This document shows positions 3,295 to 15,606 of a stretch of 64,000 nucleotides of DNA, one piece after another. The position numbers and the translations under genes are program-made. The notes beneath the pieces were generated by a model. That model was not told where the DNA came from, made no database searches, and saw only the letters and a list, made by a program, of their open reading frames with translations. Numbering within the stretch: position 1 is the first letter of the stretch; each line of letters starts with the position of its first letter. This DNA is from Micromonospora yangpuensis (lineage in GTDB: Bacteria; Actinomycetota; Actinomycetes; Mycobacteriales; Micromonosporaceae), in NCBI RefSeq assembly GCF_900091615.1, contig NZ_FMIA01000002.1, positions 1,178,001-1,242,000 on the forward strand, written 5' to 3'.

Positions 3295-3886
3295 CCGACG
3301 GCTGCCCCAGGCCGGCCACCCGGCGCAGCACCTCGGCGGCCCGGGTCGGTTCCGCACCGAGCGCGGCCTGTCGGCGCAGCACCTGAGGCTCGGCGCGCAG
3401 CAGCGCGATCCCGCGTCGTACCAGCAGGCCCGGGGCCTTGCGCCGCTGCGCCAGGTCGCGGGCGAGCCGGCGCAGGAAGGTCGTGCCGCGCGGCCGGCGC
3501 AGCGCGTACGCCCCGGCGAGCAGCCCCTGCCGGCGACATTCCGCGACGATCTCGGCGGCGAAGATACCTTCGGCCATGAAAAGTGGCGATCCGGTGAGTT
3601 CGAGTGTCCTTGTGTCCACTCTGCGGTCCGCGCCGAGCGCGTAGACGGGTACTTCGGCCCGGCCCTGTTGGGCCAGAAGGGCAATGGCCGCCACCGCCGC
3701 GCCCGCGTCCCAGGCCTCGGGTGAATCCCAGTCCACCAGCCCGTTACGCCGGGGCAACGTAGGGTCGTCACCGTCCTTGTAGAAGTCATCCAAACAGAGG
3801 ACGGGAAGACCCGTTCGATGCGCTATGTACGACTTTCCGGAGCCGGACGCGCCGGCGAGCAAAACAACGCGATGAAGGTGTGTCAT
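3257..3886 (-). CDS. Uridine kinase-like P-loop NTPase
   Basis: 209 residues with a Walker A loop at 12-19 (GASGSGKS), [16 protein letters not shown] matching the nucleoside-binding segment of uridine kinases, WDSPEAWD, and the acidic [11 protein letters not shown] strand. It probably phosphorylates uridine/cytidine or a related small substrate with ATP in the cytosol; exact specificity is not certain because the family also includes other small-molecule kinases. The 3' end overlaps add by 38 bp in convergent orientation. It is divergent from the conservon, with about 190 bp between the two start codons that must hold both promoters. Confidence 0.78.
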
Positions 3887-4077
3887 TACCGTGGGTGACT
3901 CCGCCCAGGCAGATTGCCAGCAAATTGCATCAACATCTCATCACACCGTCCGTGACTGCCAGGCTGGGCTTTCTCTTTGCGTGACGGCGTGATGGAATCT
4001 CGGAGGTCCGACCCGCCGGGTCGGTCGCTGGGCGTTGCCCTGGCAACGCGCGAAGCTGTGATCGCAAGGGCGGTGAC

Positions 4078-7000
4078 GTGAGCAAACGACCAAAGACGGC
4101 AGGCTCCTTCCGGTCGCGGCTGCGCCCCACCGGGCGGCTGCGCGACATGCCGATCTGGTCCAAGCTCGGTCTCATCATGATCGTGCCGACCATCGCCACG
4201 GTGGTCGTGGGTACCAGCGGTCTGGTCGACCACCTGGACACGCTCAACACCGCGAACCGCGCCGGCGACCTGGCCAACCTCACCGGCTACTCGGGTGACC
4301 TGGTCAACTCGCTGCAGGACGAGCGGACCTCCGCGGTGCTGTTGCTCGGTGCCGCCAACGGCCCGACCAAGGAGCGCTACCGCGAGGCGTACGGTCAGGT
4401 CAACCAGCGGGTGGACGACGCCAAGGGCCCGTACTCCCAGCAGCGTTCCGAGGTCGACGACCTGCCGAACAGCCTCGACGTGCTGCTCAACCGGATCGAC
4501 GAGAACCTCACCGAGCTGCCCGGCACCCGCAGTCAGGTCTTCAACGGCCGACTCAAGCTGACCGACGCGGTCCGCACGTACGAGGTGCTGATCAAGGACC
4601 TGCTCGACATCCGCGACTCCGCCGCGCAGCTGGCCGGGGACAACGACCTCGGCGAGCGCATGCGCGCCGCCGCGGCGACCGCCCAGTCCAAGGAATGGCT
4701 GTCCAAGCGCCGGGTGGTGGTCCACCGCGCGCTCATCCAGCAGACCCTCAACCCGGCCCTGCGTGAGGACTACATCGCCACCGGCACCGGCCAGGACCAG
4801 TTCCTGGAGAGCTTCTTCACGGTCGCCAACGAGGCCGAGGAGCAGTTCTACACGGCCACCGTCGCCGGCCCCGACCTGCGCGAGGCGGACAACTACAACG
4901 GTTGGATCAAGAGCAACACCACCGAGAGCATGGCCGACGCGCCCTTCGGACCGGACCAGTGGGACGGCGCGATGACCGCCAACGCCAAGCTGATGCGGAC
5001 CGTGGAGACCAAGCTCGACGGTGACGTGGTCCGACAGGCCGACGCGATCCGCTCCGACGTCCAGCGTCAGGTCTTCCTGGAGACCGGCCTGCTGCTGAGC
5101 ATGCTGCTGCTGGCCATCCTCTTCGCGTACCTGGTCGCCCGCTCGATGGCCAGGTCGCTGCGGGAGCTGCGCCAGGGCGCGCTCAACATCGCCCAGTACG
5201 GCCTGCCGCACGCGGTGGCCCGGCTGCGGGATCCGCAGCTGACCGGCCAGCTCTCCCCGGTGCAGCTGGCCAACCAGATCGCCGAGCCGCTGCCGGTGCG
5301 CAGCAAGGACGAGTTCGGTCAGGTGACCGAGGCGTTCAACGCCGTCCACCTGGAGGCGGTCCGGACCGCCGCCGAGCAGGCCGCGCTGCGGGCCTCCGTC
5401 GCCACCATGTTCGTCAACCTGGCCCGTCGGTCGCAGATCCTGGTCGACCGCCTGATCGGTCACCTCGACCGGTTGGAGCGCGGCGAGGAGGACCCGGACC
5501 GGCTGGCCGAGCTCTTCCAGCTCGACCACCTGGCCACCCGGATGCGCCGTAACGACGAGAACCTCCTCGTCCTCGCCGGCGCGGACTCCACCCGGGTCCA
5601 GCGTGAGCCGGCCGCCCTGATCGACGTGCTGCGCGCCGCCCAGTCCGAGGTCGAGCACTACACCCGGATCGAGTTCGGCGTGATCGACCGGGACATCGAG
5701 GTCGCGGCGCACGCGGTCAACGACCTGGTGCACCTGGTCGCCGAGCTGTTCGACAACGCCACCGCCTTCTCACCGCCGGACTCCCAGGTCATGGTGGAGG
5801 CCCGGCGGGTCGGCGAGCGCGCCTCGCTGTACGTCGAGGACCGGGGCATCGGCATCAGCGTCGACCAGCTCGCCGACCTCAACGAGCGGCTCGCCACGCC
5901 ACCCCAGGTCGACGTGGCGGTCTCCCGGATGATGGGCCTGGTCGTGGTCGCCCGGCTGGCCTCGCGCCACGGCGTCAAGGTGGAGCTGCGTCCCGGCACC
6001 GACCGGGGCACGGTCGCCGACGTCACCATGCCCACCTCGGTGCTGGTGCCGCGGGCACTCTCCGGACGGCAGCAGATGCCGGCGCTGCCGGCCTCGGCGG
6101 GTGGCCTCCTGCCGGCCGGACCGCAGTCGTCCAGCCCGCAGTCGTCCGGTCCGCAGTCGTCCGGTCCGGCGCCGGCCTTCGGTGGCTCGTCGACATCGAG
6201 CTTCGCGGGCTTCGGTGCCGCGCCGGCGCTGGGCAGCGCGCCGACCGGCCAGATCCCGGCGCAGCGGACGGGCGGCTCGGGCAACCAGATGACCCTCGGT
6301 GGCCGGTCCGTCGACCCGGCTCCGCGCAACGGCACCCCGGTGACCGCCGGTCCGGGCCGGGCCCTGCCGGCCTGGTCCGACCTGACCGGCGCCACCGGCA
6401 CCAACGGTGACGACTCCTTCGGCGCGCCCCGGACCGCCAACGGGCAGCAGATCGACCCGCTGCCGCAGCGTCGCGCCGGCGGCGACGGCGACCCGATCGG
6501 CTCCGGACAGCAGCCGGCCATCCCGCGTCAACCCACCTCGTACGCCCCGCCGGTGTCGAGCCCGCCGGTCTCCGGCGCCCCCATCTCCGGCGTGCCGGTC
6601 TCGGGTCAGCCGATCTCCGGTGCCCCGGTCTCCGGTCAGCCGGTGTCCGGGTCCCCGGTCTCCGGTCAGCCGGCGTACCCGGGCACCGGGCAGTCGGACA
6701 GCGGCGGCTTCGCCGCGTTCGGCGGGACGGGTTCCGGGCTGCCGTCGCGACCCGCCCCGAACGCGCCGGCACCGCCGGTCTGGCCACCGGTTCCGGGTAC
6801 GGAGCGCGAGGCGGCCACCCCGCCGGTGCCTGAGCGGCTGGCCGCAGCCCTGGACATGACCACCGAACTGCCCCGGGTGCCCCGTACCGACCCGGAGCAG
6901 CGGCCCGCGGCGCAGGACACCGCCCGGCAGCCCGCCCCGGCTCCGGCCCGCCCCACCCAGCAGAACCGGAAGCCGTACGCCGACGAGACGATGGAACTGC

Positions 7001-7629
7001 CCATCTTCCGCGAGCTGGAATCGGCCTGGTTCCGGACCCGCCGACCGGGGTCGGACGAGACCACGGGAGCCGAGGCTCCGCAGCCGGTGCCGGTGAGCGC
7101 GGCGGCCACCCAGCAGATCCCGGTGGTCGACGCGAACGGCCGACCCGTGCAGCGGACCGCCACCGGGACAGGTGACACACCGATGGCAGACACCCCGAGA
7201 TCCACCGGATCGCCGGGCGACGACGGGCCGGACCAGCGGGGCGGGGTCGCCGACGCCTTCGGCTCCCGTCGTGCCGGCCAGCCGCCGTACCAGGGTTGGC
7301 AGACCGCCGCCGACGACGGCTGGCGCGCGGCCACCGCGGCGAGCGAGGTGCCGGTCGCGGCCACCACCCAGACCGGTCTGCCGAAGCGGACCCCGATGGC
7401 GCAGCTCGTGCCCGGTGCGGTGGAGAAGCCGACCACGTCGGTCCAGCGGCGGACGCCGGAGGCCGTACGCGGTCTGCTCTCCGCCTACCATCGAGGGGTG
7501 CAACGCGGCCGGACCAATCCGTCCGACGGCAACCCGACCAACCCGGGGGAGACCCCGGGAGGGCAGCAATCCTCGCAGTCTGGCTCAGGCTCAGCGGCCG
7601 GGAGCGGGCAGAAGGAGCAACAAGGATGA
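4078..7629 (+). CDS. cvnA: Conservon sensor histidine kinase with NIT domain (CvnA)
   Basis: 1183 residues, GTG start. TM1 is at about 30-50, followed by an extracytoplasmic nitrate/nitrite-sensing (NIT) type domain to about 330, TM2 at about 333-352, HAMP, a dimerisation region with [10 protein letters not shown] (His484 a candidate phosphoacceptor) and a HATPase domain with N-box ELFDNATAF (556-564) and G-box DRGIGIS (near 588). The C-terminal 480 residues are a disordered Pro/Gly/Ser linker with ISG/VSGxP hexapeptide repeats (DNA 6550-6680) ending in a conserved module: [10 protein letters not shown] (976-985), DGW, GLPKR (1100-1104), LVPG (1110-1113) and YHRGVQRGR. It is the first gene of a four-gene set matching the Streptomyces conservons, in which the kinase works with roadblock, DUF742 and GTPase proteins as a membrane-bound G-protein-like switch. 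It overlaps cvnB by ATGA. Confidence 0.93.
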
Positions 7630-8030
7630 CTACTACGCAGGATCTCGGTTGGCTGTTGGCCAACTTCGCCGACCGGGTGCCCGGCGTCGCGCATGCGGTC
7701 GCCGTCTCCGCGGACGGCCTGCTCCTCGCGTCGTCACGAGACCTCCCCCGGGACCGGGCCGACCAGTTGGCCGCGATCGCGTCCGGGCTGGTCAGCTTGA
7801 CCCAGGGCGCGGCCCGCTGCTTCGAGGGCGGCGCGGTGCTACAGACAGTGGTCGAGATGGACAATGGCTTCCTGTTCCTCATGTCCATCTCCGACGGCTC
7901 GTCGTTCGCCGTGCTCGCCGCCCGTAGCTGTGACGTCGGGCAGGTCGGCTACGAGATGGCGTTGCTGGTGGACCGGGTGGGCGACGCACTGACCCCGCAG
8001 ACGCGGGCGGCTGCGGGCATGCTGGGCTGA
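7626..8030 (+). CDS. cvnB: Roadblock/LC7 domain protein (CvnB)
   Basis: 134 residues consisting almost wholly of one roadblock/LC7 domain: [19 protein letters not shown] at the N-terminus, [13 protein letters not shown], then the alpha-beta segment ending in [10 protein letters not shown]. The ATG overlaps the kinase stop codon (ATGA), implying translational coupling, and AAGGAG-like bases precede it. In conservons the CvnB protein binds CvnA and CvnD and is thought to act as a platform or GTPase-activating partner, as in Ras-like MglA/MglB pairs. A 99-bp gap with a hairpin separates it from cvnC. Confidence 0.93.
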
Positions 8031-8084
8031 TCCACCCGCTGACCGGCAGGTCGGCAGGGCAACGAGAACAGGTACGACGAGTGC

Positions 8085-8102
8085 CACCGGTGAAGACCGG
8101 TG
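8085..8102 (+). other. Intercistronic hairpin upstream of cvnC
   Basis: CACCGGT-GAAG-ACCGGTG forms a perfect seven-bp stem with a tetraloop, ending ten bases before the strong ribosome-binding site of cvnC. There is no T tract. It could stabilise or process the mRNA between cvnB and cvnC, or modulate access to the ribosome site. Confidence 0.45.
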
Positions 8103-8129
8103 CCGGGTACGAAGGAGGTGAGCGGCGAC

Positions 8130-8510
8130 ATGGCCGATCGTGACGAACCGACCGGAGCGTTGGTCCGTCCATACGCCGTGACCCGCGGTCGTACCCGTCC
8201 CCGGTTGGACATCGCACTGGAGGCACTCGTCGAAACGACGGTGCGCGGCCGGGCCACCGCCAATGGCAACAGCGGTGGCCAGGGCCGGGAACACCAATAT
8301 ATTGCCGCGCTGTGTGACGGACGCGTGCAGTCGCTCGCGGAGATCGCGGCGCGGATGCAGCTTCCGCTTGGCGTGGCCCGGGTGCTCATCGCCGACATGG
8401 CGACGGATGGCCTGGTCGCGGTCCACGAGCCGACCATTCTGGACGACTCGGATGACGCGGTGGGCACTGAACTGCTGGAGAGGGTGCTGAGTGGACTTCG
8501 CAGGCTCTGA
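8130..8510 (+). CDS. cvnC: DUF742 domain protein (CvnC)
   Basis: 126 residues. The start ATG at 8130 is chosen because AAGGAGGTG (8112-8120) is correctly spaced from it; an in-frame GTG at 8118 lies inside that site. The sequence has the DUF742 hallmarks: GALVRPYAVTRGRT at the N-terminus, EHQYIAALC, and a winged-helix-like half with SLAEIAARMQLPLGVARVLIADMATDGLVAVH. DUF742 proteins are the third member of conservons; they resemble a winged helix, but their role is not settled. The 3' end overlaps cvnD by 20 bp. Confidence 0.92.
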   Translation: MADRDEPTGALVRPYAVTRGRTRPRLDIALEALVETTVRGRATANGNSGGQGREHQYIAALCDGRVQSLAEIAARMQLPLGVARVLIADMATDGLVAVHEPTILDDSDDAVGTELLERVLSGLRRL

Positions 8511-9105
8511 CATGTCGCGCCGCCCGCCGACCCCGAGCGGGCGGGTGACCTCGGCGAAGATCGTTATCGCCGGTGGTTTCGGTGTCGGTAAGACGACGCT
8601 CGTCGGCTCGGTCTCCGAGATCACGCCGCTGACCACCGAGGCCATCATGACCTCCGCCGGTGTGGGCGTCGACGACACCCGGCAGGTGCCGGGCAAGATG
8701 ACCACCACCGTGGCGATGGACTTCGGCCGGATCTCGATCGACCGGGACCTGATCCTGTACCTCTTCGGTACCCCGGGTCAGACGCGTTTCTGGTTCATGT
8801 GGGACGAGCTGGTCCGGGGCGCGATCGGGGCGGTGGTGCTGGTCGACACCCGTCGGCTGGCCGACTGCTTCGCGGCGATCGACTTCTTCGAGCACCGACG
8901 GCTGCCGTACCTGGTGGCCATCAACTGCTTCGACGGGATGCAGTACCACGACCCGCAGGACGTCCGGGACGCCTTGGCGATCTCCCACGACGTGCCGGTG
9001 GTGGCCTGCGACGCCCGTAACCGGGAGTCGACCAAGCACGTACTGATCTCGCTTGTCGAGTACGTGCTCACCATGCGTCGCTCGCGCGCCGTCGCACCGG
9101 CCTGA
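8491..9105 (+). CDS. cvnD: Small Ras-like GTPase (CvnD)
   Basis: 204 residues. P-loop GGFGVGKTT at residues 28-36, the switch region around LTTEAIMTSAGVGVDDT, and a G3-like FGTPGQTRFWFMWDELVRGAIGA-type segment (no DxxG aspartate; glycine-threonine-proline instead), followed by VVLVDTRRL. The canonical NKxD is replaced by INCFDG, as is usual in this family. Start GTG at 8491 has GGAGAGGG seven bases upstream; ATG at 8512 (MSRRPP) is an alternative. CvnD proteins bind and hydrolyse GTP and are the output switch of the conservon. No terminator is evident directly after the stop codon. Confidence 0.92.
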   Translation: MDFAGSDMSRRPPTPSGRVTSAKIVIAGGFGVGKTTLVGSVSEITPLTTEAIMTSAGVGVDDTRQVPGKMTTTVAMDFGRISIDRDLILYLFGTPGQTRFWFMWDELVRGAIGAVVLVDTRRLADCFAAIDFFEHRRLPYLVAINCFDGMQYHDPQDVRDALAISHDVPVVACDARNRESTKHVLISLVEYVLTMRRSRAVAPA

Positions 9106-9691
9106 CCGGCCCGCTCAGCACCCGGTGACGGCACTGCCGACCCCGGGCGTACGTCGCTGACCCCCGCTCGGCGAGTAACCGCGTCCGCCGGGTCTGTGGC
9201 GTCTGCACCGCGTCCGTCGGTCCTGCACGTCCCCACCGCGTCCGTCGGGTCTGTGGCGTTTTCATCGCCGTCCGTCGGTCCTGCTGCGGACCGACCAGCC
9301 TGTCCCCACCGCGTCCGCCGGGCCAGCGTCGGGCCCGCGCTGCGTCTCGCCTTGGTCTGCGGGAGCCGCACCGGGTGGGTCCCGGGCGTCCAAGAAGGCC
9401 CATCGCCGGGTTACCGGTGACGTGGTTGCCGGGGTCCTGACGGGTGCCATGCGCTCGGGCATGGTGCCCTGTGGCCGCCGGTCTGGCCGTCCGCCGGTCT
9501 GGCCGTCCGCCGCTCGGCCGGGCGCCAGTCTGGCCGGTGACGGCCCCCTGAGCCCGCCCGGTGGGAGTGTCGCGCCCGTGCGGTGGTTCCCGCACCGTCG
9601 CCGTGGCTCATCACGAAGCGGCAGGCGTCATCCCGCCGACAGCCCTACCGGTGCCAGGAGCCGCCGCGCCCGGGTACTCCCCGATCAGCTC
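9106..9691. repeat. Repeat-rich intergenic gap after the conservon
   Basis: No convincing gene. From 9178 to about 9320 there are two and a fraction copies of a degenerate unit of about 57-73 bp beginning ACCGCGTCCGYCGGGTCTG; within each unit the CCGYCGG core recurs. At 9481-9512 a 16-bp unit (GTCTGGCCGTCCGCCG) is perfectly duplicated. Short open frames here have no family features. The gap separates the convergent cvnD and the minus-strand repeat-protein gene. Confidence 0.7.
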
Positions 9692-9746
9692 TGTGAGAGG
9701 GGTGCCCCGCTCTACCGAAAGCGTTAAGAAGGGGCCCTTCCTTACA
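9692..9746 (-). repeat. 55-bp dispersed element, copy A
   Basis: Reading on the minus strand: AAGGAAGGGCCCC, then TTAACGCTTTCGGTA, AGCGGGG-CA-CCCC and CTCTCACA. It starts three bases after the stop codon of the 918-residue protein gene. The same 55-bp unit occurs at 22935-22989, 54371-54424 and 56294-56348. It contains a CGCT/AGCG stem with an eight-base loop next to a GGGG/CCCC stem. Confidence 0.85.
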
Positions 9747-9749
9747 CCT

Positions 9750-12506
9750 TTAGTAGCCGGCGGAGCGGAACTCGTACTCCCGGTCGTCGTCGCGGTCACC
9801 GGTGTCCCGGCTGAAGTCCCAGCCCCCGGCGGCCTCCCGGCCCGGTCGGCCGCCGACGGCGAAGCCGCCGATCTCCTGACCACGACGCCAGCCGCGGAAG
9901 TATCCGGTGGTGTTCTCGGCGAGGCTGGCCGCGTCACGCACTATGCGCAGGGGACGCTCCTCGCGGAGCGGCGAGCCGGGCACCAGGTTGGCCTGGGGTA
10001 CCCGCTTGGGCAGGCCGGCCGAGGTCGCCGCACCAACCGCAGGCTCGGCGGCCTGCTCGGCGGCCTGCCAACCGGTGTCGGCGGTGCTCGTCCACTCGAT
10101 GTCGGTCTCGTCGCCGTGCCCGACGAACCAGGCGGACTTCGCCGCGGCGAAGATGAGCAGGTCCCCGTCGCCCTCGTCGGCGATCGGCGGCGGCCGGTGC
10201 TCCACCGGGGGCCGGTGCTCCACCGGGGGCCGGTGCTCCAGCGGGGAACGCTGCCCCAGCGGCGAACGCTGCTCCAGCCCGGAGCGCTCACCCAGCGGTG
10301 AGCGGTGTTCCAGCGACGGGCGCTCCAAGGAGGCCCGCTGTTCCAACGAGGTCCGGTGCTCCAACGAGGACCGCTGGTCCGACGCGGAACGCTCCTCCAG
10401 TGGTGACCGGTGTTCGAGCGAGGCGCGCTGTTCCAGCGAGGGACGGCGCTCCAGGGACGACCGCTGCTCCAACGACGCCCGCTGCTCCAGGGAAGGCCGG
10501 TGCTCCAGCGACGAGCGCTGCTCCAACGATGGGCGCGGCTCCAGGGATGAGCGCTGGTCCAGGCCTCGGCGCTGGTCCACGGGGGAGCGTTCGCCCAGCG
10601 GAGGACGGTGGTCGAGCGGGGAACGGTGACCCGGCGGGGGCTGTTCGGCGCGGGCGGCGGCCCGGCCACCACGCGTGGCGTCCTCCCCGACCAGCCGCAG
10701 CGGCGGGTTCTCCAGCTGCGGCGGGTCGGCCGGCGCGGTGCCGCCGTCGCGGCGCGTCCGGTCGCCCAGCGGCGGCGGCTCGACGAGCCGCAGCATCGGC
10801 GGCTCCGGGGGCAGGTCGTCGGCCAACCAGGGCGGGGTGACCCGGCCGTCGGTCGTACCGGGGTCGGTGTTCGAGTCGATGCTCCGGCCGGCCGGCTCGC
10901 CGGGGTACGCCACCGCGTTGTCGGCGGAGCTGTCGGAGTGGTCGTCGGCGTTGGCGACCAGCGGCCAGTTCGCCCGTGACCCGGGCGGTGCGGTCGGCTC
11001 CGGACCGGGCCGAGGGGTGGGCACCGGCACATTCAGGTCGGTCACGCTGAAGCCGCCCGTCGGCGGGTCCCCGGCAGTGGTCTGCGGGCGGGGCGGGATC
11101 ACCGTACGCTGCCGCTCCGCGCGGGCGCTGTTGATCGCCGCGGTGGTCAGTGTCGGACGGAAGGGCTCACCGGCCTCGGCGGGCGGCACCTTGTGGCGCT
11201 GCGCCGGGGTGATCGGGGTGATCCCGGGCGGCGGCGGTGGCGGCGCGGAGACCGGCCGGTTGGCCGGCGGGTCCACCCGGGTGGGCGCGTCGATCAGCGA
11301 GGGCCGGGGCTCGGTACGGCCGGGCGGCGTCGAGACCGGCGGTCCGGCCACCGCGGCCGGGGTAAGCGGGGACGGTGCCACCGGCGGCGGAGCGATCGGG
11401 GTCGGTGCCACCGGCGGGGGACCGAGGGGGCGGGGTGGCGGTGGTGGCGTGCCCTGCCCGACCGGCTCGGGGCGGCTGCGCCGCCCGCCACCGGGTGCCG
11501 GTGGCGTCTCGACCGGCCGGACGGACCGGAGCCCGGGGCCGCTGCCACCGGTCCCGGGCAGTTCGCCGACGGCTTCGCCCCGACGCGCGGCGGCCCGGCG
11601 GCCGGGGACCGGCGTGGGGGCGGTGACCCGGGCGCTGAGCGCGCTCACCAGCGCCTCGCAGCCGGCGTCGCAGGCCCGTACCGAGGCGACCGCCTGCCGG
11701 ACGGTCTCCGCGACCGCAGAGGTGAGCGCGCGGTTGACGGTGGCCCGTCGGGGCGTCTCCGAGATGGCGACCCGCAGCGCGGTGACCGCCTCATTGATCT
11801 CGTCGGCCTCCGCCACGCCGTCGGCGGCGAGGTGCGCCGCGACCGCGTCGGCGGCGACCGAGATCTCCCGGCCCCGGGCCATGGTGCCGGTCAGCATGCC
11901 GGGCTCCGGCAACGCGTCGAGCACGGCCAGCGCGACCGGCTCGGCCGGGTCCGGGTACGCCCGCAGCGCGGCCGGGTACAACTCGCGGAGCACCTCACGC
12001 AGCGCCGCCGCCGCCGCGTGCCTGCCGGTGGACAGGGCCGCGTGCGCGGCGAGCACCTGCTTGTAGTTGGCCAGGTCACGGGGAGCGGGCAGGGTGACCG
12101 CCGACAGCGCGCCGGCCTGCAACGCCCGGGCCAGGCCGACGGCCCGCCGCTCGGCCGGTGCGGAGTGCATCTCCTCCACCGAGTCGTCGTCGGCGAAACG
12201 CTCGGCGAAGTCGTCCACCGAGTCGTCGTCGGCGATCGCGAGTGGACGACCGGCGGCACTGAGCAGCGAGGTGATCGTGTGGTCGTCGCTGTCGGCGGCG
12301 ATCGCCGCACCGCTCGGGCCGCCCGAGCGCTCGACGAGCAGCGCGACCAGCCGGGCGTAACCGGCTGGTTCGTCGCCGATCTCACAGAGATGCAGCAGAC
12401 GGCCTGCGTCGTCGACCACGGCGGAGGTCAGCGCCGAGCCGGCCGCGGCCGATCCCTCGGTCGCATCCGCCGAGGCCAGACCGCAGTACACGCGCACGAG
12501 CGCCAC
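9750..12506 (-). CDS. Repeat protein with degenerate IS110-like N-domain and conservon-kinase C-terminal module
   Basis: 918 residues, GTG start with GAGGAGG upstream. Residues 1 to about 310 follow the layout of IS110-family DEDD transposase N-domains (AGYARLVALLVE, SLLSAAGRPLAI, VGLARALQAGALSA, LPAPRDLANYKQVL), but the acidic catalytic positions appear lost. Residues 310-630 are Pro-rich and low complexity. Residues 629-771 are 24 tandem units, all hexapeptides except one of five residues, of the type SLEQR-S/P/A. Residues 782-877 carry LLIFAAAKSAWF, ADTGWQAAE, SAGLPKRVPQANLVPG (831-844) and YFRGWRRGQ, the same ordered motifs as the CvnA C-terminus encoded 2.2 kb away. No TM or signal peptide. 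I infer a conservon-associated scaffold rather than an active transposase; function is unknown. Confidence 0.7.
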   Translation of the reverse strand: MALVRVYCGLASADATEGSAAAGSALTSAVVDDAGRLLHLCEIGDEPAGYARLVALLVERSGGPSGAAIAADSDDHTITSLLSAAGRPLAIADDDSVDDFAERFADDDSVEEMHSAPAERRAVGLARALQAGALSAVTLPAPRDLANYKQVLAAHAALSTGRHAAAAALREVLRELYPAALRAYPDPAEPVALAVLDALPEPGMLTGTMARGREISVAADAVAAHLAADGVAEADEINEAVTALRVAISETPRRATVNRALTSAVAETVRQAVASVRACDAGCEALVSALSARVTAPTPVPGRRAAARRGEAVGELPGTGGSGPGLRSVRPVETPPAPGGGRRSRPEPVGQGTPPPPPRPLGPPPVAPTPIAPPPVAPSPLTPAAVAGPPVSTPPGRTEPRPSLIDAPTRVDPPANRPVSAPPPPPPGITPITPAQRHKVPPAEAGEPFRPTLTTAAINSARAERQRTVIPPRPQTTAGDPPTGGFSVTDLNVPVPTPRPGPEPTAPPGSRANWPLVANADDHSDSSADNAVAYPGEPAGRSIDSNTDPGTTDGRVTPPWLADDLPPEPPMLRLVEPPPLGDRTRRDGGTAPADPPQLENPPLRLVGEDATRGGRAAARAEQPPPGHRSPLDHRPPLGERSPVDQRRGLDQRSSLEPRPSLEQRSSLEHRPSLEQRASLEQRSSLERRPSLEQRASLEHRSPLEERSASDQRSSLEHRTSLEQRASLERPSLEHRSPLGERSGLEQRSPLGQRSPLEHRPPVEHRPPVEHRPPPIADEGDGDLLIFAAAKSAWFVGHGDETDIEWTSTADTGWQAAEQAAEPAVGAATSAGLPKRVPQANLVPGSPLREERPLRIVRDAASLAENTTGYFRGWRRGQEIGGFAVGGRPGREAAGGWDFSRDTGDRDDDREYEFRSAGY
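10194..10622 (-). repeat. 18-bp coding tandem repeats (24 hexapeptide units, one of five residues)
   Basis: Degenerate 18-bp units encode SLEQRS/SLEHRP/SPLGER-type hexapeptides at residues 629-771 of the gene above. Units vary mostly at positions 1-2 (SS, PS, AS, SP, PP) and 5 (Q, H, E, R, P), while Leu/Val, Glu/Asp/Gly and the final Arg are kept. One unit is a residue short. The array alternates acidic and basic residues and is probably an extended linker. Confidence 0.85.
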
Positions 12507-12569
12507 GGCGTCGTCCTCCTCACGAACACAGGTCGTTCTCTGCCAGTGACTGATGCTCCCTGGTGCGGG

Positions 12570-13529
12570 TCAGTCGCGCCAGTCCACCACTGCAGAGATC
12601 TTCCCGACAATGGTGCGCCAACCCAAACTGGCGGTCTGCGCCCCGATCTTCTTCAGCCGTCGGCGACCGAGGAAACCACCGACCCCGCCGTTGACGGTGG
12701 CCCGCAGCGCCTCGTCCAGGTCGTCGAGGCTGGAGCCCGAGGAGAGCATGTCCAACACCGACGGCAGACGCAGCGAGTACGCCAGGTCACGGGCCACCTC
12801 GCCGGCCTGGATCAGGAGGTTGGGATCCCAGGTGTCGTGCCCGCCGCGCAGGTTCTCCACCACCAGGTCGAGCTCGTAGGTGTCCTCGTCGAGCGGGACG
12901 ACGTCGGCCGGTTCGAGCCGTTCGGACAGTTCGCGCCAACCATCCAGTTGGGACAGGTCGTTCGGCGCGCCGGACCGGACGAAGGTGACGAGCGACTCCG
13001 GGGTCTTGAAGAGCAGCAACCGCCCCTGGTGGGTCAGGAAGGCCGGCACCTCCTCGTCACCGGCGTCGTCGTCCGTCTCGTCCTCGTCCTCGTCGTCCTC
13101 GGCGGTGTCGCCGCCGGCCCGCTTGCCAGCGGCTTCCTTGTCGCTCTCGGCGAACTCCTCGGCGACCTCCTCGTCGAGGATCACCACCGTCTCGTCGTCC
13201 TCGTCCTCCGCCTCGGCGGCGGCCTGCCGGCGGGCGAGGAACGGGTCGTCCTGGTCCCGCTCGGTCACGTCCGTCGGGGTGACCTCGCGAGCCGGCCGGT
13301 ACGCCCGCAGCGTGAAGCCGGTGCCGGCGGGCAGGGCGACCTCCACCGGATCGATCCGCGTCTCGGCCCAGAGCGCGCGGTCGGGTGCCGTGGTCGGCTC
13401 GGCGACAGCCTCGATGTCGACCTCGTCGGGCTCGGCCGACCCGGTGGTCTCGTCGGACTCGGCCGATCCCGTGGTGTCGTCGAGCTCGGGCTCGTCGGCG
13501 TCGGGCCGTTGGGGCGACTGACGGGCCAC
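12570..13529 (-). CDS. Conserved acidic actinobacterial protein of unknown function
   Basis: 319 residues. The GTG at 13529 is chosen because GGAGG sits exactly five bases upstream (13535-13539). Residues 1-80 are polar with ESDETTGSAE-type repeats. Around 85-105 is ALPAGTGFTLRAYRP. Residues 120-190 are extremely Asp/Glu-rich (EDDEDEDETDDDAGDEE). The C-terminal 130 residues are folded: LTHQGRLLLFKTPESLVTFV, LDLVVENLRGGHDTWDPNLLIQAGEVARDLAYSL. No signal or membrane segment. I do not recognise a function; the acidic middle suggests a protein that contacts a basic or nucleic-acid-binding partner. A TAGGGT-like -10 lies about 75 bp upstream on the minus strand. Confidence 0.7.
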   Translation of the reverse strand: MARQSPQRPDADEPELDDTTGSAESDETTGSAEPDEVDIEAVAEPTTAPDRALWAETRIDPVEVALPAGTGFTLRAYRPAREVTPTDVTERDQDDPFLARRQAAAEAEDEDDETVVILDEEVAEEFAESDKEAAGKRAGGDTAEDDEDEDETDDDAGDEEVPAFLTHQGRLLLFKTPESLVTFVRSGAPNDLSQLDGWRELSERLEPADVVPLDEDTYELDLVVENLRGGHDTWDPNLLIQAGEVARDLAYSLRLPSVLDMLSSGSSLDDLDEALRATVNGGVGGFLGRRRLKKIGAQTASLGWRTIVGKISAVVDWRD

Positions 13530-13665
13530 GCTGACCTCCGTATGCTTCGGGTTGCCCACTCGTCGGCCTTCCGACCGCCAAGTGACTCTGGGCACATACC
13601 CTAGTGGGCGACTCCGGTACCGCGCTGCGCGCACCCCGCCGGCACGTCGGATCAGGGCCGGAGGA

Positions 13666-15606
13666 TCAGGGGGCCAGGGCGAGGTAACCCCGCTCGGCGG
13701 CCTCCTGCGCCAGCCACTGGTCCCGGTACCAGCCGGGCACCCGGACCAGCTCGGCGTGCGGACCCTGCTGCACCACCCGGCCGGAGTCCAGCACCAGGAT
13801 GTCGTCCAACGCGTCAAGTCCGCTGAGCCGATGGCTGATCAGCAGCACCGAGTGCCCGGCCGGGGTGGCGGCCAGCGCCGAGGCGAGGACGGCGTCGGCG
13901 GCGGCCGGATCGAGCCCCTCGGTCGGCTCGTCGAGCACCAGCACCCCCGGCGCGGCCAGCAGGGCGCGGGCCAGGGCGAGTCGTTGCCGCTGCCCACCGG
14001 AGAGCTGTTCGCCCTGCTCACCCACGATGGTGTCGTACTGCTCGGGTTGGGCGCGTACCCAGTCCAGCAGCCCGGCCGCGGCGGTCGCCGCGGTCAGTTC
14101 CCCCGGGTCGGCGTCGGGGCGGCCGAGCAGCAGGTTCTCCCGGACCGAGGCGTGGAAGACGTACGCCTCGGCGAGCAGGCCGCCCACCGTGCGGGGCAGC
14201 TGCTCCGCCGGTAGCTCGGCGAGGTCCACGCCGGACAGGGTGACCCGCCCGGAGCGGGGCCGGACGGCACCGGTGAGCACGGCGGCCAGGGTGCTCTTGC
14301 CGGCGCCGCTCGGCCCGACCACGGCGACCCGGCGGCCGGCCGGCAGGTCCAGGTCGAACCGGTCGAGGGCGGCCGGGCCGCCGTCCCGGTACCGGACGGT
14401 CACCCGGTCGAACCGGACGTCGCACGGCCCCTCGGCCGGCTCCGAATGGGCCTCGGGCGGCCCCTCGGCCGGCTTCGAATGGGCCTCGGGCGGCCCCTCG
14501 GCCTGGCGCGCCGCGCTCGTCGGGGCGGGCGAGGTGGCCGGCGGGTCGAGCAGCGCGGCGACCCGGGCCAGCCCGGCGCGCAACTGGGTCCACTGTCGGG
14601 CGGCACCGACCAGGGCCAGGGCGATCTCGACGGCGGCGAGGGTGCCGACCGCGAGTACCCCGACGAGCACCCCGTCCACCCCGGCGCGGAGTGCGACCAG
14701 CACCACCGCGGCGGCGGTCAGTCCGGCCACCAGCACCCCGGCCGCGTCGACGGCGAACCCGACCGCGGCGAGGCGGCGCTCCAGCCGGCCCAGCCGGTCG
14801 GCCCGCTGCCGGGCGGCCCGCCACGCGTACCCGGTGGCGCCGAAGGCGGCCAGGTCGGCCGCGCCGTGGGTGAGGTCGACGGCGTCCGCGGCCAGTTCAC
14901 CCCGCAGCGGGGCGACCTCGGCGGCCCCCCGGCGGGTGAGCGCGGTGGCCAGCACCGGCAGGACCACCCCGGCCACCAGCAGTCCCAGCGCGAGCGCCCC
15001 GGCGGCGGCCGGGGAGACCAGCGCCGCCCCGCCCACGGCCAGCACCCCGACCAGCCCGGCGGCGGACGCCGGTACGAGCACCCGCAGCAGCAGGTCCTGC
15101 ACCGTCTCGACGTCGGAGACGAGCCGGCTGAGCGCGTCGCCCGAGCGTTGCCCGACGCTGTCCCGGCTGGCCGCCAGGCTGGCGAAGACCCGGGCCCGTA
15201 CGTCGGCGACCAGGCGCAGCACGGCGTCGTGGCCGGCGAGGCGCTCGGTGTAGCGGAACACCCCCCGGCCGATGGCGAGCGCCCGGACGGCGACGATCGC
15301 CACGGTGAGCCGGTCCAGCGGTGGCTGGCCGGCGGCGCTCATCAGCAGCCAGGTCGCGGTCGCCATCAGGGCCAGTCCGGCCAGCTCGGTGGCCGTGGCG
15401 AGCAGCCCCGCGCCGAGCAGTCGGCGCAGGTACGGCCGGGTGAGCCGCAGCACGGCCCGCTCGGCGGCGAACCGGCCCGACCGGCTCGACCGGCTCGGTT
15501 GGCTCGGCTGGCCCGGTTGGCTCGGCTGGCCCGACTGGCTCTGCCGGCCCGGCTGCCCGGTCCGGGCCCCCGACCCGGCGGGGACGCTGGTGGGCTCGTC
15601 GCTCAT
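13666..15606 (-). CDS. cydC: Thiol reductant ABC exporter subunit CydC
   Basis: 646 residues: a low-complexity Gln/Ser/Pro/Gly N-terminus (1-45), a six-helix transmembrane domain (about 50-330) with TATWLLMSAAGQPPLDRL and RYTERLAGHDAVLRLVADVR typical of CydC, and an ATPase domain with Walker A GPSGAGKST, signature [15 protein letters not shown] and Walker B VLVLDEP. CydDC exports cysteine and glutathione and is needed for cytochrome bd assembly. A duplicated 11-residue unit (PPEAHSKPAEG) joins the two domains. Its start overlaps the cydD stop (ATGA, 15603-15606), so the pair is coupled. cydAB are not in this window. Confidence 0.88.
   Translation of the reverse strand: MSDEPTSVPAGSGARTGQPGRQSQSGQPSQPGQPSQPSRSSRSGRFAAERAVLRLTRPYLRRLLGAGLLATATELAGLALMATATWLLMSAAGQPPLDRLTVAIVAVRALAIGRGVFRYTERLAGHDAVLRLVADVRARVFASLAASRDSVGQRSGDALSRLVSDVETVQDLLLRVLVPASAAGLVGVLAVGGAALVSPAAAGALALGLLVAGVVLPVLATALTRRGAAEVAPLRGELAADAVDLTHGAADLAAFGATGYAWRAARQRADRLGRLERRLAAVGFAVDAAGVLVAGLTAAAVVLVALRAGVDGVLVGVLAVGTLAAVEIALALVGAARQWTQLRAGLARVAALLDPPATSPAPTSAARQAEGPPEAHSKPAEGPPEAHSEPAEGPCDVRFDRVTVRYRDGGPAALDRFDLDLPAGRRVAVVGPSGAGKSTLAAVLTGAVRPRSGRVTLSGVDLAELPAEQLPRTVGGLLAEAYVFHASVRENLLLGRPDADPGELTAATAAAGLLDWVRAQPEQYDTIVGEQGEQLSGGQRQRLALARALLAAPGVLVLDEPTEGLDPAAADAVLASALAATPAGHSVLLISHRLSGLDALDDILVLDSGRVVQQGPHAELVRVPGWYRDQWLAQEAAERGYLALAP
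14425..14490 (-). repeat. 33-bp in-frame tandem repeat in cydC
   Basis: Two 33-bp units (14425-14457, 14458-14490) encode PPEAHS(K/E)PAEG in the linker between the membrane and ATPase domains. The two copies differ at only a few bases. Confidence 0.75.

Follow-up and report, generated by a model that had tools for sequence, protein, structure and literature searches.

The conservon locus and a facing gene

The stretch of DNA analysed here, hereafter the window, comprises 64,000 nucleotides of Micromonospora yangpuensis (NCBI RefSeq assembly GCF_900091615.1, contig NZ_FMIA01000002.1, positions 1,178,001 to 1,242,000). It contains a conservon, cvnA-cvnB-cvnC-cvnD, on the plus strand, and this conservon is faced by a minus-strand gene for a protein that we call REP ("repeat protein"). 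The genes of the locus are the following:

4078..7629, plus strand: cvnA, a conservon sensor kinase of 1183 amino acids (Pfam NIT, E 1.5e-41; HATPase_c, E 5.5e-13; HAMP, E 6.8e-07)
7626..8030, plus strand: cvnB, a roadblock/LC7 protein and the proposed partner of the tail described below (Pfam Robl_LC7, E 4.3e-23)
8130..8510, plus strand: cvnC, a DUF742 protein (Pfam, E 1.8e-30)
8491..9105, plus strand: cvnD, a small GTPase (Pfam ATP_bind_1, E 6.2e-34)
9750..12506, minus strand: REP, with an IS110-derived N-terminal half, a proline-rich linker with repeats, and a tail shared with CvnA
12570..13553, minus strand: a SatS-like open reading frame that lies upstream of REP and shares its orientation (NCBIfam NF050072, E 3.5e-11, 42.7 bits)

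Counted from a candidate GTG start codon at 12506, REP is 918 amino acids long. It had no Pfam match up to an E value of 5 and no NCBIfam match, and none of the domains of the sensor kinase core (NIT, HAMP and HATPase_c) was found in it by the Pfam scan. The gap between cvnD and REP contains tandem repeats of about 29 bp and about 16 bp (at 9178-9278 and 9475-9536), and an Rfam scan of window positions 3500-13700, including these repeats, gave no match reaching the gathering score. The score of the SatS-like open reading frame is far under the NF050072 cut-off of 700. A homologue of this frame was found on the strand of REP in 108 of the 117 REP loci compared (from 115 genomes, G073 and G075 contributing two apiece; G049, G099 and G108 are not included in this set); a SecA2-chaperone-like gene travels with REP.

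A C-terminal tail common to CvnA and REP

Near its C-terminus, REP carries a segment that is also found in CvnA. The positions given for this segment in the initial annotation (REP residues 782-877, DNA 10163-9876 on the minus strand; CvnA residues 972-1145, DNA 6991-7512) were correct. Its parts are the following:

9876..10163, minus strand: the tail of REP, residues 782-877, common to CvnA (motifs, BLASTP, shuffles and profile alignments)
7003..7032, plus strand: a ten-residue stretch (976-985) within the tail of CvnA (motif reading)
7297..7512, plus strand: the core of the CvnA tail, W1074 to R1145 (BLASTP to REP and profile alignments)

Among the motifs listed in that annotation, IF-x4-SAWF, GW-(Q/R)-AA, A-x-LVPG and Y-x-RG-x2-RG occur in both proteins and in the same order, whereas (T/S)-x-GLPKR-x-P is unmatched in CvnA; the eleven residues at that site of CvnA depart from the strict pattern, in which the residue before GLPKR is misplaced. 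SAWF and GLPKR lie about 113 residues apart in CvnA, and in REP the distance is about 36. By BLASTP, REP 805-877 aligned with CvnA 1074-1145 at 50.4 bits (E 4e-10), and a local alignment of the two tails scored 139, whereas 1000 shuffles averaged 37 and reached 65 at most. These two results rule out chance or low-complexity similarity and confirm that the similarity between the tails of REP and CvnA is real. The proline-rich linkers of REP and CvnA also align with each other (score 125), as does the CvnA tail with the REP linker (score 73), and similarity outside the tail was therefore given no weight.

The module is slightly longer than first described, with W-x(S/T)-x2-D added before GW and R-x11 added before Y-x-RG. 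Its joint consensus begins with L(P/L)IF-x4-SAWF, a gap of variable length and W-x(S/T)-x2-D-x-GW-x2-A, continues with T-x2-GLP-x-R-x-P-x-(A/Q)-(N/Q)-LVPG in most rows of the family (more loosely elsewhere), and ends with R-x11-Y-x-RG-x2-RG in the family Micromonosporaceae. The SAWF element, sought with a loose LP[IVL]F / WF pattern, was present upstream of GLPxR in 92 of 92 family kinases and in 19 of 30 class kinases. The SAWF, GW, LVPG and RG motifs were each found in 118 of the 120 homologues listed. Structure prediction for the REP tail alone gave, with low confidence, a mostly unstructured chain with two helices (pLDDT 58.4, pTM 0.20), which agrees with the earlier description of a disordered tail rather than a folded domain.

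When CvnA tails were counted in, a match to the REP tail was found in every one of 121 Micromonosporaceae genomes. REP itself, judged by scores, was present in 118 of them. The other genomes (G002, G019 and G038) had CvnA-like matches only, the absence of REP being confirmed at the locus in G019 and read from the score alone in G002 and G038. In the family loci, all 92 tail-bearing CvnA genes have a roadblock gene directly after them. Of 69 genomes of the class, 19 contained matches to the REP-tail profile, 35 in total. Outside the genome that contains the window there were 30 distinct class loci (two of 32 tail open reading frames were left out as cut fragments of neighbours already counted), and at all 30 the tail lies on a conservon kinase core. 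The roadblock gene is directly downstream in 29 of these loci, the exception being one (L144) where the tail is present and no roadblock gene was found. A joint profile found matches in at least 145 of 325 class genomes, and the matches listed were mostly open frames of kinase size. We followed up 12 odd-sized or edge carriers from this wider survey: six had a kinase core, on the same open reading frame or on an overlapping frame-shifted one, and six were cut by contig ends. A roadblock gene was downstream in 11 of the 12, and no new type of protein with the tail was found among them. A plasmid collection yielded one Nonomuraea record, with two places. REP was the sole non-kinase carrier of the tail seen in the family loci, the 30 class loci and the 12 odd carriers. 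A spread of the motifs over many unrelated disordered proteins, which the initial annotation had named as the result that would speak against it, was not seen in the class loci or the odd carriers. The tail appears to be a general feature of conservon kinases at large.

Of eight roadblock loci examined in the genome that contains the window, five have a tail upstream, two have a kinase in which no tail was detected, and one has neither. Some kinase-roadblock pairs therefore do without the tail. At one of the loci surveyed (L291, 3474-9632, minus strand), an open frame of 2053 residues combines the tail with a kinase core of the CvnA type, which is preceded by about 850 residues.

The closest known proteins with respect to the tail are the conservon kinases CvnA/MfpE, which have the same C-terminal segment and a roadblock gene as the next gene. 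Unlike these kinases, REP has no NIT, HAMP or HATPase domain. According to a 2026 preprint, the longer C-terminal domain of actinobacterial MfpE has no notable sequence conservation (PMC13015309); short conserved elements were found in it here. Unstructured terminal regions are mentioned for CvnA8 in the CvnF8 paper (PMC13343842). No publication joining a conservon with IS110, and none on a conserved CvnA tail, was found among the titles and abstracts listed.

IS110 ancestry of REP

The initial annotation saw REP as a repeat protein and missed both its IS110 transposase origin and the generality of the tail in conservon kinases. Besides the tail, REP is made up of the following parts:

12087..12506, minus strand: REP 1-140, a RuvC-like (IS110, PF01548) domain that has lost the catalytic Asp
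11616..12086, minus strand: REP 141-297, long helices that align with Nop5/Nop56-type helices
10164..11576, minus strand: the proline-rich linker, with an 18-bp repeat tract at about 10188-10562
9753..9875, minus strand: the C-terminal extension after the tail

The first approximately 300 residues of REP correspond to RuvC plus a coiled coil. A REP profile found PF01548 proteins at an E value of 1.9e-30. The Pfam model of PF01548 misses the REP of the window and, on five other REP N-terminal halves (the only part of other REPs covered by the Pfam scan), it matched only those of L064 (E 5.8e-4, 20.1 bits with a cut-off of 29) and L062 (E 0.037); PF01548 is precomputed on three proteins (P0125, P0128 and P0129). 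Plain Foldseek with the REP model returned no match at an E value of 0.001 or below, with Spt6 complexes first in the list, and IS621/ISCro4 were the top fold rows in a second look with VIA-align. From these comparisons the common descent of REP and IS110 is clear, and assignment to PF01548 by cut-off is not.

REP resembles the IS110-family recombinases IS621 and ISCro4 in having a RuvC-like domain and long helices, according to sequence and fold matches. Unlike in these recombinases, the catalytic Asp column (D11) is acidic in none of 109 REP rows, and the Tnp domain (PF02371) with the catalytic Ser was not recognised in the REP of the window by Pfam up to an E value of 5. In no row are more than two of the four DEDD columns acidic, and the E60 column is occupied by Asp in 93 rows and by Glu in seven. 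In addition, REP differs from IS110 recombinases in its few copies per genome (by scores, one locus in 116 of 118 genomes and two in G073 and G075) and its conserved neighbours, and for these reasons it does not look like a mobile element. Its sequence marks REP as a derivative of IS110 that is catalytically dead, has been exapted and is tied to a conservon.

Among the REP homologues listed, most of the named ones are called "transposase" and one is called dihydrolipoyllysine succinyltransferase; both names look wrong. The repeat units of the REP linker are six residues long (e.g. SLEQRS / PLEHRP), and the tracts in relatives are shorter or different. The second REP-like copies in G073 and G075 (L071 8882-10384 and L231 7776-8444) had neither a roadblock gene nor a conservon found nearby.

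RB2 and the candidate partner of the tail

A roadblock gene belonging to REP itself, here called RB2, lies directly downstream of it on the same strand in the deeper-branching REP lineages. This arrangement was found in 22 of 115 REP loci (those with at least 900 nt of flank), with 380-520 nt between the stop codons of REP and RB2, and the amino acid identity between RB2 and CvnB was 37-45% in the 12 cases measured. Apart from those of a convergent conservon, the 22 REP-RB2 loci yielded neither a CvnC nor a CvnD, and in 10 of the 22 there is no conservon within 5 kb. The REP of the window has no roadblock gene directly downstream, and no RB2 remnant was detected between cvnD and REP (best tblastn E 0.18). 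Among the REP loci without RB2, 84 of the 87 with enough flank have a convergent cvnD no more than 5 kb away, as do 12 of the 22 loci with RB2, a contrast that is confounded by kinship and for which an independent-pairs test has no power.

A quick tree of 109 REPs, which leaves out eight of the 117 loci that have no N-terminal half on the same open reading frame (contig ends or interrupted frames), places the rows without RB2 inside the RB2-bearing ones (two changes, one of them forced by well-supported branches). This topology fits one loss of RB2, provided that the midpoint root is right; several long branches meet in the tree. On the roadblock tree, which has few columns and long branches, RB2 forms one separate group, which gives no support to a recent origin of RB2 by copying of the neighbouring CvnB. 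Relocation of RB2 elsewhere in the genome was also rejected; in the genome that contains the window, the best match to an RB2 profile is the neighbouring CvnB (104.4 bits), followed by a match of 91.0 bits.

The downstream roadblock gene is common to both tail-bearing genes, whereas the kinase, CvnC and CvnD are not. On the basis of this gene order, the tail is, on balance, probably a docking segment, transferable and in large part disordered, to which roadblock (CvnB-type) proteins bind. The stronger conservation of the tail than of the N-terminal half of REP, with and without RB2, also speaks for this reading. Only the REP-RB2 pair counts as independent evidence from gene order, since adjacency of cvnA and cvnB is part of any conservon, and the association of REP with RB2 may go back to one evolutionary event. 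A roadblock dimer would be bound by the short elements L(P/L)IF-x4-SAWF, W..D.GW and GLPxRxP..LVPG and by a last helix ending in YxRGxxRG. The binding mode may be like that of p18/LAMTOR1 in the eukaryotic Ragulator, described as an extended chain that winds around roadblock dimers and anchors them to a membrane or scaffold; the likeness proposed is one of working mode, and no kinship is claimed. The MfpE preprint describes MfpD, the mycobacterial counterpart of CvnB, as a GAP for the GTPase (PMC13015309). Through its tail, CvnA would keep CvnB, the regulator of the GTPase, at the membrane sensor. REP would provide a soluble, coiled-coil body for a roadblock protein, which in the deep lineages would be RB2. 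In the lineage of the window, RB2 is absent, the tail is kept and a conservon adjoins REP in 84 of 87 loci; therefore, REP may use the CvnB of the neighbouring conservon. As a second scaffold or competitor for CvnB, REP without RB2 would share it or compete for it and thereby tune the GTPase switch. The conserved Trp and Phe of helix 1 of CvnB/MfpD are missing from RB2 in all 12 rows, and this Trp/Phe surface is unsupported as a common dock. The lack of these residues, together with the separate grouping of RB2 on the tree, weakens the idea of one docking surface for CvnB and RB2.

The initial annotation had proposed that the two otherwise unrelated proteins share a binding partner, such as a conservon GTPase or a membrane docking component. 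That the two share a tail and may share a partner is supported, and the interpretation as a whole is partly supported; we redirect it from the GTPase or the membrane to the roadblock protein. The strongest of the alternatives, though unlikely, is that the tail binds CvnC, the GTPase CvnD or the membrane, with the roadblock gene as a mere neighbour. Two-hybrid contacts among CvnA9, CvnB9, CvnC9 and CvnD9, first published in 2006, are reported in PMC8510531, together with a model that places both CvnB9 and CvnC9 on CvnA9. These contacts agree with a CvnA-CvnB contact and equally allow CvnC or CvnD, and the RB2-less REP, which keeps its tail, adjoins a complete conservon. However, the 22 REP-RB2 loci with no CvnC or CvnD of their own make the roadblock protein the likelier partner, and the 10 of them without a nearby conservon point the same way.

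It is still less probable that the tail acts on the kinase, with REP docking on CvnA, or being modified by it, through a tail-tail contact to which the roadblock protein is irrelevant. The tail is the only segment common to the kinase and REP, and accessory proteins can act on a conservon kinase, as seen for CvnF8, a GAF protein modelled at the HATPase and DHp domains of the kinase (PMC13343842). REP is like the accessory proteins CvnE and CvnF8 described there in being an extra protein tied to one conservon. Unlike CvnF8, it is transposase-derived and carries the kinase's own tail. A tail-tail contact is at odds with the roadblock gene that follows REP in every RB2 locus and with the lack of a conservon near 10 of them, although kinases may be encoded elsewhere. 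A passive relic, formed by insertion of an IS110 copy into a duplicated cvnA-cvnB pair or by recombination between the two, and made up of a transposase N-terminal half, a kinase C-terminus and a roadblock gene, could account for the fusion and the roadblock neighbour by one event, but as a full account it is very unlikely, since it leaves unexplained both the presence of the SAWF, GW, LVPG and RG motifs in 118 of 120 homologues each and a tail that is better conserved than the N-terminal half (mean pairwise identity of 58.6 vs 36.8% in the 22 loci with RB2), even without RB2 (69.8 vs 62.8% in 87 loci).

Docking to a roadblock protein can be extended, more tentatively, to a family-wide account, in which an IS110 recombinase domain lost catalysis, took over the disordered roadblock-docking tail of the kinases and came to serve a Ras-like G-protein system as a soluble arm, at first together with a roadblock protein of its own and, once RB2 was lost, by sharing CvnB. 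It would suggest that this recombinase domain has been exapted for signalling throughout the family, which the name "transposase" now hides. Should the dead RuvC / Nop-like half have kept an ability to bind nucleic acid, a membrane G-protein switch would be coupled to DNA or RNA. The phosphorylation target of the conservon kinases is called unknown in the CvnF8 paper (PMC13343842). The recurrence of the tail on an unrelated protein, again with a roadblock neighbour in the deep lineages, makes it a concrete and mutable candidate for the link between kinase and roadblock protein.

REPs without RB2 also have a conserved extension after the tail, ending in EYEFRSAGY in the window, which is short or missing in REPs with RB2. 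The residues after the tail model number 24-48 in the former and 1-30 in the latter, and the extension may replace something that RB2 did.
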